NCBI GenBank assembly: GCA_033239005.1
Contig: BSQZ01000005.1
Span: forward strand, 3,687,001-3,751,000
DNA: 64,000 nucleotides
Source of the DNA: Lamellibrachia satsuma
Taxonomy: Eukaryota > Annelida > Polychaeta > Sabellida > Siboglinidae
Reading direction: 5' to 3'
Part shown: positions 48,801 to 54,800 of the stretch, piece by piece
How positions within the stretch are numbered: the first letter of the stretch is position 1
How the letters are laid out: every line of letters begins with the position of its first letter
Program-made: the position numbers and the translations under genes
The notes under the pieces: model-generated
Seen by the model: the letters and a program-made list of their open reading frames with translations, nothing else
Told to the model about the DNA's origin: nothing
Database searches by the model: none

Positions 48801-51800
48801 GAAATTCTTAAGTCCTTTTATTGGTTCTTTATCTTTACATGAACTTGTTCATATTTGACATGGACGTACAAGGTATGTCTCTACAGGTATTTGCAATCGT
48901 GATACATGCTCATGAATGCCAAATTTGGGTGAAGTATGTATAACTGATTTAAGCAAAGTAGACCATGAAGTGCAAATATTGTTACAGTAAAAGATCAACA
49001 AATATTAAATATTATGTTCAGACTTGGCATGTAGACTCTAAACAAAGGGTGAATAGGCATATGTGGTTAAGAAAATCATTTGTCAATGATGGCGTCAAAA
49101 AGTCACAAGCCCTTGTACAGAAGTGAAGACAGGTCATTTATCAATGACTTGATGACATGGATATTGACACAAAATAGTTCCAATAGTGGTAGTCAGTTCC
49201 ACATATTCTGATAACATATTAAGAATAAGATAAGCTGGATGGCCTTGATGTGCTATAGGAATTTCTCGTTGCCCAAAGTTCAGATACATCTGGTGCACAG
49301 AACCATCAAGTGACAACTAATTGGGTGTTTCTTGTCTGGAGGTAATCATGCATCACACAAACATGGTGAATTATATGTAGTGTAATTCATTATTTCATAT
49401 AGTACAAGTTGAAAGCGAAAAGAACGATGAGAAAATGTATGAATAGTTTGCCGTATTTGTGGTTTTGTGGTGGATTCTCTCCGCCTGTGACATGTCTTAC
49501 AGGTGGAGAGACTGGAGCGACCCGGAGAGTCTCTCCACCTGCGACATGCCTTACAGGTGGAGATTCCATTCCTCTCTACAACAAATAGAATGGCCATTTC
49601 TCTTTATGGAGAGACCAGGGAGGACAAATAGAATAGACAAATAGTCTTTGTGAATGTTGACGTTTTGTGCCCGATTTTTTGCAGGAGGACGGGACAGACG
49701 CGGTGGGCCAATATTGACCTTCCCGGGGGAAGTGGATGCATCTGCATTCAGTGCAGATGACATAATTTCATGTTTGACTTATCTCTCAAGTATTCCCAGG
49801 TGAGAATAATATACACTGATTGAACGATACTGGGTTTTATGCACGTGTTGTTTCAGAATGTTGTATTGAGTGAGTATTTATTATATGGGTTCATAGCTAA
49901 CATTTCAACACACTTAATGCAATAAAACTGCGATTTTACAAATGATTTACTAGCATTTCTCAAAAACAATCAGTGGGCGCCATTTGCTTCTGCGCATGAG
50001 CATAACAGTGTGATTCGGGTTTTTATTGTACTGGATGTCGCACCGTGCAGGACAGCATGTATCACTGTAGACAGCGTGTATCGCTGTAGACAGCGTGTAT
50101 CACTGTAGATAGTGTGTTATAGGTAGCACTTACCCATGTTTATATTACCTACTTTTTATTACCTTTATATTACAGAGCCAGTTTACTCAGGCGAGTGAAT
50201 TTCACTTACAGATTCCCAACTTGTGATAATGCTTCATGGATATCTTTATAAGATGAGAAACTCTATGCTAGATTTGAGAACAACTGAACAGTTTTGTACC
50301 TTTAAAATGGTCTTGTTTTGAAATATTCTGCTACTGAACCATTGACAGGTGCTATTTTTATAGTAGTGGCAAATATTTTATGTTTATTTATCCTGACTTT
50401 TTTTAGATAAAGTATGCCATGTAAATTAATTTAAATGAGCCATGTAAAAGTTAAATTAGTTTTAATATACATGTTAGTTTCATGAAGTAATTTTTATTAG
50501 TAGTTTTTTATTTTTTATATATATTTTTTCACGGTTCGAGTTTCTCAGCACTTACTGGAACATTAAAAAACACTTTAAAAGACCTTAAAATTATCATTTC
50601 AAAGCCCTTTCCAGCAATCTGGAATGTCAAGATATAATATAAAATATGACAGTATAGGAGAATAAACCACCCATTTTCATGCTAAATTAAAAACCACAAA
50701 AGGTGTACAATTTAGGGAATATGATTCAACTTTGGTGGGTTAGCCAAGCCTATTGAAGAAAACGCTTCTTCCACTGCAACATAGATTTTGGCCTTCTGCA
50801 ACGTATCACAGAGTATGTTACGTGTTTCTGTTAGATATAGTACAGCTGGCCATGTGGATGTGCACTTCCACAATACAGGACAATATAATAAAGACCTGTG
50901 CACCAACAACTACCAGAGAGAGAGGTAGAATTGCAGAAAATGAAATAAAAAGGGTTTCCTATCAGAGTTAGAACTGTCAACCAACTGTGAGGTTAAAAGG
51001 ATAACTTTTCAATGTGTATTGTACAGTGTGCACAACAAATTGCTGAGTTGTGTAAGTTATGTGGTGTCCACGAAGTCTCTTTCACGTAACAAAAACATTT
51101 CCTATTGACATCAATTTTCTTGTTTGTGTGACATCTATAATATGTTGAAGATGTCCCACAAACAAATAGGCACTGTAAGAAAATTCATGTCAACAGGAAA
51201 TATTTTTTTTGCATGTGAAAGAGACTTTTTTGCACTCTACACCACATTGCACAAAACACGTTGAAACCTTCTTCAATCTCACTGTTGGTTGAGACCAAGT
51301 CTTCACTTTCTAGGAAACCAATTTGTCATTGTCTGCACAGTTTCTAGTTGTTGATGCACTTGTCTTTATTATGTTGCCCAGCATTGTGGAAATGTGCAGA
51401 TGTTTCTAGCAGAATCGTGCCAGTATCCAAGGACTGCACTTGTCTGATAGAATGGCGCCTGGGAAGTGATAACATAATCTCCTGTATGGGCGAAGTCGGG
51501 GCGGCATTCAAGTAATTTAATTATCATGCACTAGCCAGTCCACGGTCAATAAATATGTCTATCTACGACTCTGATAGCTCGGGAGAGAGAGAGCGCTGAG
51601 GACAAATATACAGGTATCTTTAAATGAACAATCTGATGATTGTTTTCCAGATGAACTATTGAACACATGAACGTCAAAAACAAATAAATGTTATGATTTG
51701 GTTGGAGAATGAGAAAGAAACAGGATGATGCAAGCAAGCATGCACACATGCATGCACACGCATGCATTCACACATTCACAGACTCTGTATATTGTAAATC

Positions 51801-54800
51801 TTGCTATTCCTTGCAGCATTGAATCAGTTGACCAAGGCTTCACTGTGATAATATTGTAAATCTTGCTATTCCTTGCAGCATTGAATCAGTTGACCAAGGC
51901 TTCACTGTGATAATATTGTAAATCTTGCTATTCCTTGCAGCATTGAATCAGTTGACCAAGGCTTCACTGTGATAATATTGTAAATCTTGCTATTCCTTGC
52001 AGCATTGAATCAGTTGACCAAGGCTTCACTGTGATAATATTGTAAATCTTGCTATTCCTTGCAGCATTGAATCAGTTGACCAAGGCTTCACTGTGATAAT
52101 ATTGTAAATCTTGCTATTCCTTGCAGCATTGAATCAGTTGACCAAGGCTTCACTGTGATAATATTGTAAATCTTGCTATTCCTTGCAGCATTGAATCAGT
52201 TGACCAAGGCTTCACTGTGATAATATTGTAAATCTTGCTATTCCTTGCAGCATTGAATCAGTTGACCAAGGCTTCACTGTGATAATATTGTAAATCTTGC
52301 TATTCCTTGCAGCATTGAATCAGTTGACCAAGGCTTCACTGTGATAATATTGTAAATCTTGCTATTCCTTGCAGCATTGAATCAGTTGACCAAGGCTTCA
52401 CTGTGATAATATTGTAAATCTTGCTATTCCTTGCAGCATTGAATCAGTTGACCAAGGCTTCACTGTGATAATATTGTAAATCTTGCTATTCCTTGCAGCA
52501 TTGAATCAGTTGACCAAGGCTTCACTGTGATAATATTGTAAATCTTGCTATTCCTTGCAGCATTGAATCAGTTGACCAAGGCTTCACTGTGATAATATTG
52601 TAAATCTTGCTATTCCTTGCAGCATTGAATCAGTTGACCAAGGCTTCACTGTGATAATATTGTAAATCTTGCTATTCCTTGCAGCATTGAATCAGTTGAC
52701 CAAGGCTTCACTGTGATAATCGATAATCAACATGGTCGGCAGAAAAATGTCAAATCACTACTCAGAATCATTCAGGTAATCCTCTCACTGTGACACATAT
52801 ATCGGGTGGCAGTTATTTTAACCAATCAAATAAAATAAATTTTGCCTAAGCACTAAGCATGTCTACTGAGGTGCCAAACTAATTAAAATGTACCAATTGT
52901 AAACTTGTTCTGTAATAAACAACTGTTTTAAAAAGGCAATGGAAATGATCTAGGCGTGATATAGACTCAGCACATAGTATAAATACTTATTTCTTATTAA
53001 CTTATCGGTGCTCAGTCATATGTATCGTGAGAAATGTTCCCTTATTAAACAGGTACGTTATTGAGTGAAGGTGATGATACAAAGTGTGTTTCCCTTACAG
53101 CACTGTCTCGGCAAGAGAGTGTTTGCTGCATATCTGGTTCTGCCGGAAAAACAGAAACTCAATCTAAGCTTTCGCAAGGAGAAGACGCAGTACTCATTTC
53201 AGGTATGCGAGCAGTTTAGTGTTACGTCGTGCACAGTCATTGGATGATAAAACTGGTATAAAAGTTAGTGATTTACTGTCACTTTGCAGTATTAGTTGTG
53301 TGTGGAGTGTTATTTCTGTTTCTGTGACTGTAAAGCACTGAGAAAGAACTTTAAATGCAATATGTGACTTATTTAGCAAACTATAGTATATGCAATAATA
53401 TTTTTTTAGTATACCTGCAGTATTAAAAAAAATAATGTTAATTAGTTGTTGGTGTAATTATATGTATATATTTAATATTATCTACACATAAGGTTAAGAT
53501 CAAGATATGTTTATATTTAAGATTTTTGCTTAGAAATGCTCTTTTAAAATGTTAACTTATTTTCAGTTTTGCCATTTGTGTGTAATAAGGATGCGACCAT
53601 GTTTTATAAGGACTTTACGTTTGGAGGAAAACGAAAATGCCATCATTTTAAGCATTCATGTAGAAAACGTTCAGCAGGGACTCGTTTTACACCTGGTCTT
53701 TTTATGTTTAGTATCAGCAGTTGACGGCCAGCAAACTGCAGACGTACATTAGTAAGAGTCAAATCACACCAGAACTCGGAGGAAGTCTCCCATATAGACA
53801 TGACCTGTGGCTCAAGAGCAGACTGGTAGGTTCTTCCTACAGTCACTAGGGACAGCACTACCGAGCAGCTCATTCACCAGGGGCACCACTGCTGAGCATC
53901 TCACCTAGTAATGAGTTGTTTCGCAGATTATCTCGGAAGTTTGATTTGTCAGTATGGAGTGTGTGTTGTACTATTACTGCATATGCATAAATATGGAGCA
54001 TTACAATTTTTACATGCATAGTCAGCATAAAACAAACTGAAAACAATTGTTGTAAGTTAGATTAAATTTATTTGTTGCTTTTGATGGTTGTTAACTCTTG
54101 TTTTTGCTCCTAGCTCTTCAATAGCCCATACAGAAATGACTGATTGAATTCTGAAGTAACAATTTTCATTGAATCACATCTATTGAGATTTACCTACTCC
54201 ATGCTTTTCACATACTAATTATCAAAACAGAAGAACTAGTCATCCCAGAATTCAGTTCCTGATGAAAGCTACCGATGTTAGCTGAAATGTTGAGTAATTA
54301 AATCTTAATAGTTGTGTCTTTTTCTTACCAGGAGCATGAGAAGTTTCTGCGAGAAGTGAACGCCGTGTCACGCCATCTTGACACACAGATCTCCCAGCTC
54401 AGCCGCCAGCTCAAGAAACAGAAGGACCTAACGACAGAGGACCTGATGCGACAACGGGAACACCTTCTACTCACTGTCATTCAGTCACCTGAGAAGCTGC
54501 TCACTGAGGGTACGGTTTGTTGCAGAAAGTCGTTGGTAGCAAACTGGCATAATTTACACTGATGGAATAAACAATATTCACAACACATTAAAAAAAATCT
54601 AATGCTAATGCGGATGCATTGCAGATATCACATCTTTTGAAAAATAGACATCTTCCAGTTACTACATAACTTGAGAAGGCTTTCAGGAATCCCTGGCCTG
54701 CAAGTACTGGAACACATTACCCTTGGGCCCAACAGGGCACTTTGGGAGGGGGGGTTGAATGACTCCAATGACCCCCTCCCGGCTATATGGCTAAATACTT

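Follow-up and report, generated by a model that had tools for sequence, protein, structure and literature searches.

How does a gene retain its reading frame when the sequence at which one of its exons begins is present many times over? The question is raised by a 64,000-nucleotide stretch of the genome of the siboglinid tubeworm Lamellibrachia satsuma (assembly GCA_033239005.1, contig BSQZ01000005.1, positions 3,687,001 to 3,751,000 of the forward strand; hereafter the window), in which the acceptor of exon 2 of SESTD1 is the last of 15 identical, tandemly arranged copies. The explanation that we favor, with a probability of roughly 0.7, is that a young minisatellite engulfed the acceptor in a minisatellite-rich siboglinid genome, and that the array is the annelid counterpart of the mirages of amphioxus: tandem duplications of exon–intron boundaries described from globin (BflGb6, BflGb9), Adh3 and troponin C genes (PMC3087553, PMC3902484).

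Anatomy and purity of the SESTD1 array

An initial annotation of this DNA described 15 exact copies of a 62-bp unit. Tandem Repeats Finder (TRF) and a direct unit count bear this out: the period extends over 15 complete units with no mismatches and no indels (mean pairwise difference 0), plus two further shared bases (AT) at the right edge, and the 930 bases originally given describe this array in a shifted register (Table 1; copy number is as found in one assembly). Each unit comprises 28 intronic bases ending in CTATTCCTTGCAG, followed by 34 exonic bases, CATTGAATCAGTTGACCAAGGCTTCACTGTGATA; the earlier figure of 36 exon bases per unit is the sum of these 34 and the shared AT. The exonic part of copy 15 constitutes the first 34 nt of exon 2. 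Acceptors are located at 51817 + 62n, but the whole 91-nt exon is entered only from 52685: from every upstream acceptor (14 of 14) the frame reads SIESVDQGFTVIIL-stop, that is, a stop after 14 codons. The reading frames thus agree with the initial claims that the acceptor is repeated, that only the fifteenth copy opens the whole exon and that the others lead to a stop.

Within interior units the closest upstream AG ends 42 nt before the acceptor (the AGs of the unit are at 28, 39 and 48), and the AG-free stretch contains TTCAC at -37 and TAA at -22; an interior unit together with its predecessor could therefore form a complete acceptor. As branch points, TTCAC at -37, TTGAC at -48 (both in the preceding unit) and TAA at -22 are not diagnostic, because some match to yUnAy between -50 and -14 is evident in 15 of 21 acceptors.

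SESTD1 was modeled as 13 in-phase exons plus a first coding exon, with numbering that starts at the exon at 49685 (if the exon at 42738 is counted, exon 2 is the third coding exon). This and all other gene models are our own, with phase, canonical ends and homology serving as checks. The predicted protein best matches that of Ridgeia piscesae (79% identity over 91%), followed by Capitella (50%) and Branchiostoma belcheri (41% over 71%). This homology fits a siboglinid annelid near to, yet distinct from, Ridgeia, and led us to reject amphioxus, which the literature on mirages had brought to mind as a source. Exon 2 is real, as its protein fits an alignment with Capitella, two hemichordates, a chiton and amphioxus. 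The intron that precedes it spans 2,885 nt if measured up to the last acceptor and 2,017 nt if measured up to the first; the intron that follows is 325 nt. A Pfam search recovered the SESTD1-like spectrin repeat but no Sec14 domain at E 0.001: the original placement of the truncation inside a Sec14 domain thus depends on the alignment with SESTD1 relatives.

Table 1. SESTD1 and PTPN23 exons and boundary arrays in the window (a slash marks the splice junction)
Feature	Position	Strand	Basis or remark
Third boundary array, 70-bp x5.2, repeating PTPN23 exon end and donor CTGTAG/gtgagt	12735..13100	+	TRF
PTPN23 phosphatase exon ending VVHC	12691..12795	+	Next exon at 14443 continues SNGVGRTG; relatives
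SESTD1 first coding exon (MATLRSNYS...)	42738..42864	+	tblastn, 90.7% identity to Ridgeia P0001 over 43 residues; donor
SESTD1 exon preceding exon 2	49685..49799	+	Donor CAG/gtgaga
SESTD1 exon 2 array, 15 perfect 62-bp units + 2 shared bases	51789..52720	+	TRF, direct unit count
SESTD1 exon 2	52685..52775	+	Phase, GT/AG check; alignment with SESTD1 relatives
Second SESTD1 boundary array, 26-bp x4.4 then 47-bp x5.3, repeating exon 6 acceptor AG/GTCAAGACCTC	54838..55212	+	TRF
SESTD1 exon 6	55184..55395	+	First 29 nt inside second array

The array DNA has a single matching place in the assembly (735,336,914 bases in 279 contigs), namely the contig of the window, in a search that passes over simple repeats and restricts scoring to the best candidates. 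Assumed substitution rates between 1e-8 and 2e-9 per site and year, with conversion ignored, turn zero differences over 930 bp into an upper bound of 0.3-1.6 million years on the age of the array, although this bound is not used as evidence.

Perfect identity could also be a product of assembly: if units were collapsed, expanded or polished, the true locus might contain one copy, a few, or some other number. The absence of exon 2 from the published model of Ridgeia points the same way, although the contig N50 given for that assembly is only 10.4 kb (PMC9921365). We nevertheless regard an artefact as very unlikely: contigs are long (735 Mb in 279, the largest seen being 34.6 Mb), variation between units is kept in other arrays of the same assembly, and a second array with 100% matches (39 bp x10.1) was found among arrays of at least five copies in a 200-kb sample of the genome. 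The sample, 20 segments of 10 kb taken at round coordinates from contigs C1-C10, holds 97 arrays with a period of at least 15 bp, which occupy 18% of the 200 kb (7.5 kb being N).

Choice among identical acceptors

If a minisatellite engulfed the acceptor, then it would have expanded from a segment that happened to hold it, growing by slippage or unequal exchange, and would be homogeneous either because it is recent or because it is subject to homogenization. The copy contiguous with the exon would be the one mostly used, exon definition pairing the sites that are closest across the exon; use of any other copy would give a stop-containing mRNA, presumably cleared by nonsense-mediated decay. A separate function for the upstream copies is improbable. 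The next donor lies 91 nt from copy 15 and at least 153 nt from all other copies, and human data indicate that sites closest across the exon are favored where flanking introns are long (PMC9225289). Given this proximity and the 2,885-nt intron, copy 15 is expected to be used in most cases, with some leakage into mRNA that decays.

Several observations count against this reading. Copy 15 bears no local mark: the first and last acceptors have similar scores, and their predicted accessibilities are 0.45 and 0.40, respectively, with values of 0.33-0.35 for interior copies. The donor of exon 2, CAG/gtaatc, is the second weakest of 22 (score 3.0). At exon 6, whose acceptor is also repeated, four upstream acceptors outscore the real one (11.8-14.9 vs 9.0). 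Human alternative 3' sites overall favor the upstream copy, a bias that long introns only lessen (PMC9225289); together with the weak donor, this makes leakage to upstream copies plausible. Finally, the choice of copy 15 is deduced from reading frames only, and the number of copies comes from one assembly. An RNA structure or local signal that singles out copy 15 was considered and set aside, there being no useful difference in score or predicted accessibility. All splice scores are rough, the matrices being built from the 21-22 sites of our own gene models, array boundaries included.

Leakage could be more than incidental. If a sizeable share of transcripts, dependent on copy number, is spliced to upstream acceptors, meets a stop after 14 codons and decays, then the length of the array would set the output of SESTD1. 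Such a role draws on the lean of human 3' sites toward upstream copies (PMC9225289), on the weak exon 2 donor and on the acceptors themselves, which are identical over the unit and whose score of 5.9 (leave-one-out) falls inside the range of real sites. We consider it unlikely: amphioxus mirages are reported to be harmless to regular splicing (PMC3087553), leaky arrays at as many exons as carry them in our myosin sample (8 of 40, see below) would impose a heavy load, and arrays are not enriched at boundaries. The initial annotation posed the matter as a dilemma, in which 14 acceptors must be skipped or a large share of transcripts truncated. The challenge exists, but it is no paradox of one gene, as boundary arrays occur at many exons.

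A further possibility is that the units are nascent exons. As first described, ATT/GTAAAT follows each AG by 39 nt, and the 39 nt are free of stops and in frame, so that cassettes spliced to non-adjacent units would preserve the frame; intron gain through boundary duplication has been reported in potato (PMC4974935) and proposed for amphioxus (PMC3087553). The suggested pseudo-exon is, however, weak. Against a matrix from the window's own introns its donor scores about 0, compared to 2.2-11.1 for 21 real donors, and 30% of GT dinucleotides between 24 and 48 kb of the window score as high. The other GT of the unit, ACT/GTGATA, also falls below all 21 (0.6), and splicing between adjacent units would leave an intron of just 23 nt. 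We hold exon or intron gain at this locus to be extremely improbable.

Boundary arrays in the window and across the genome

Two more arrays in the window span splice sites. At SESTD1 exon 6, seven upstream AG/GTCAA acceptors precede the real one, and a stop lies behind all seven. The third array repeats a donor in PTPN23, a gene identified via its phosphatase part: four extra donors are present, and with any of them the frame closes at codon index 36, two codons past the cysteine of VVHC. The correct copy is the last one of an acceptor array and the first one of a donor array; in both cases this gives the shortest exon.

Beyond the window, a search of the genome with Myosin_head returned 77 exon matches, and in 8 of the best 40 an array crosses the edge of the exon: four at acceptors (L035, L047, L049 and L059, the last degenerate) and four at donors (L036, L038, L045 and L061). 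Loci were chosen blind to their arrays and taken in two sets, 20 with 700-nt flanks and then 20 with 500-nt flanks, the second set being picked after the first had been seen. Loci were read by eye only where an array was at or near the edge of the match (5 of 20 in the first set, 8 of 20 in the second), and the first 20 were in addition all scanned for copies of exon edges. The figure of 8 of 40 is a lower count from one gene family, since exon edges outside the profile match can be missed. A ninth candidate, L033, was left uncounted as a donor array: over the first four copies its repeated GT scores -0.1 to 1.1, less than any of the 22 real donors.

Taken together, the 11 boundary arrays (three in the window, eight at myosin exons) offer 89 alternative sites, 78 of which lead to a stop, while five are open but frame-shifted and six are open in frame; the copy contiguous with the exon is open in 11 of 11. 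All six sites open in frame belong to L038 and add 10 residues per unit. They are the first six extra donors of that array (L038:929-1109), which makes it a candidate for length isoforms. At another myosin locus (L053:1003-1297), 206 nt from the match, a 71-bp array with 99% matches has a gene-strand unit containing GAG/GTAAGT.

If arrays were targeted to splice sites, then they should straddle them more often than chance predicts. Placement was simulated over two spans of the window (3733-15785 and 49685-62949), with the coding array at 5061-6279 excluded and two CA/AT arrays kept. Of 13 arrays, three straddle a splice site compared to 4.4 expected from uniform placement (P of at least three = 0.90) and 1.9 expected where placement spares exons (P=0.28). 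At the first 20 myosin loci, an array is present at 4 of 40 match edges, vs 5-8 of 40 points located 100-600 nt into the flanks. Targeting is thus unsupported by either control, and nothing beyond ordinary minisatellite birth need be assumed. On the simplest account, minisatellites arise everywhere in the genome, and those at a boundary persist while the exon-contiguous copy still works.

A bolder view is that unstable minisatellites lie across a sizeable fraction of all splice sites in this worm, and that at thousands of exons the copy number which an animal inherits sets how much mRNA with a stop is made by leakage: a genome-wide, length-coded control of splicing, tolerated by virtue of unusually strict exon definition. 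The view builds on the 8 clear cases at 40 myosin exons, which have at most 80 edges, and on 3 of 43 modeled splice sites in the window; we judge it quite unlikely.

Known systems and the use of such arrays

By its anatomy the SESTD1 array joins the mirage kind: its 62-bp unit lies within the 10-160 bp of mirage units and, like them, spans a boundary. No common origin with the amphioxus arrays is claimed. Mirages have been described from cephalochordates, whereas the gene here is that of an annelid (the best SESTD1 homologue is from a siboglinid). The two haplotypes of BflGb6 are described with 6 and 3 copies of 81-100% identity, as against 15 identical copies here; the same sources note this difference in copy number between haplotypes, cite somatic instability at Adh3 and describe imperfect mirages in PGBD5 (PMC3087553, PMC3902484). 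The tubeworm arrays, found at 8 of 40 myosin exons, are known from genomic sequence.

Other systems share single features. In human genes of segmental duplications, minisatellite units of about 30 bp lie at exon–intron boundaries and can alter splicing (PMC2812944), but the account concerns recently duplicated primate genes with alternative transcripts, whereas our genes were selected through their membership of conserved families. Intron gain by tandem duplication (potato RdRp; the AGGT model) likewise involves a duplicated piece that crosses an intron–exon boundary with acceptor signals (PMC4974935); the tubeworm units differ in having no credible donor. Tandem dual-specific splice sites of the polyubiquitin gene UBC are in register with the repeat (PMC10809524), and the exon 6 units also hold AG/GT; UBC sites, however, bound whole ubiquitin monomers and are described as giving coding isoforms, while most alternative copies here lead to stops. 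Among annelids, earthworm metallothionein genes have first-intron repeats of minisatellite size, and exon 4 duplications in one clone are reported as absent from the transcript (PMC12783039); these are intronic repeats and whole-exon duplications, as opposed to a short unit that spans a splice site. In C. elegans an intronic minisatellite, with the repeat in introns flanking alternate exons, is tied to multiple alternative splicing (PMC4039745). Our literature search, from which subscription journals were mostly absent, recognized no report of a boundary array in an annelid.

Studies of splice-site competition usually mix sequence and place. The 15 acceptors of this array show no difference over the 62-bp unit, so that essentially only their position sets them apart, and one alone gives an open frame: the main value of the locus is as a natural test with a clear read-out. 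Acceptor arrays discriminate between exon definition, which predicts use of the last copy, and first-come or intron-closest choice, which predicts the first; donor arrays discriminate between exon definition (first copy) and intron-closest choice (last copy). Tubeworm cells must repeatedly choose one site from rows of near-identical decoys, and if the frequency of boundary arrays in the myosin sample holds more widely, then the proximity rule could be tested at a great many sites of one animal with a single RNA data set.

There is also a warning for annotation. The Ridgeia SESTD1 model (P0001) lacks exon 2, the next exon being seemingly stretched upstream instead, and includes a minisatellite-like insert (repeats of the TPTSVTVGG type) at another boundary, which in the window falls between an exon ending at 61896 and the one starting at 62762. 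The Branchiostoma belcheri protein (P0022) has eight tandem 22-residue copies of the DMEKFARDSAEMCQQLDQLEHA type where the exon starting at 54332 is situated here; these could be mirage copies annotated as coding. A search with SESTD1 exons 1-6 found a 147-aa fragment from a related genome (P0151, ENA) that aligns with window positions 54995-55398 and has a second GQ-LYR copy, read through, upstream of the start of exon 6. Its match to the exon 6 array is weak (E 0.006), but hints that this acceptor may be duplicated in a relative too. P0151 was rejected as proof of a transcript, as it looks like genomic read-through and not a spliced product.

Arrays at 53843-53903 and 59288-59489 start downstream of SESTD1 donors, at a distance of 15-18 nt, and leave the donors themselves out. 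Elsewhere in the window, a 45-bp coding minisatellite (5061-6279) lies in the proline/glutamine-rich exon of PTPN23 and is open in the reading frame, and a 25-bp array of about 109 copies (21209-23922, 96% matches) has long open stretches in more than one frame.

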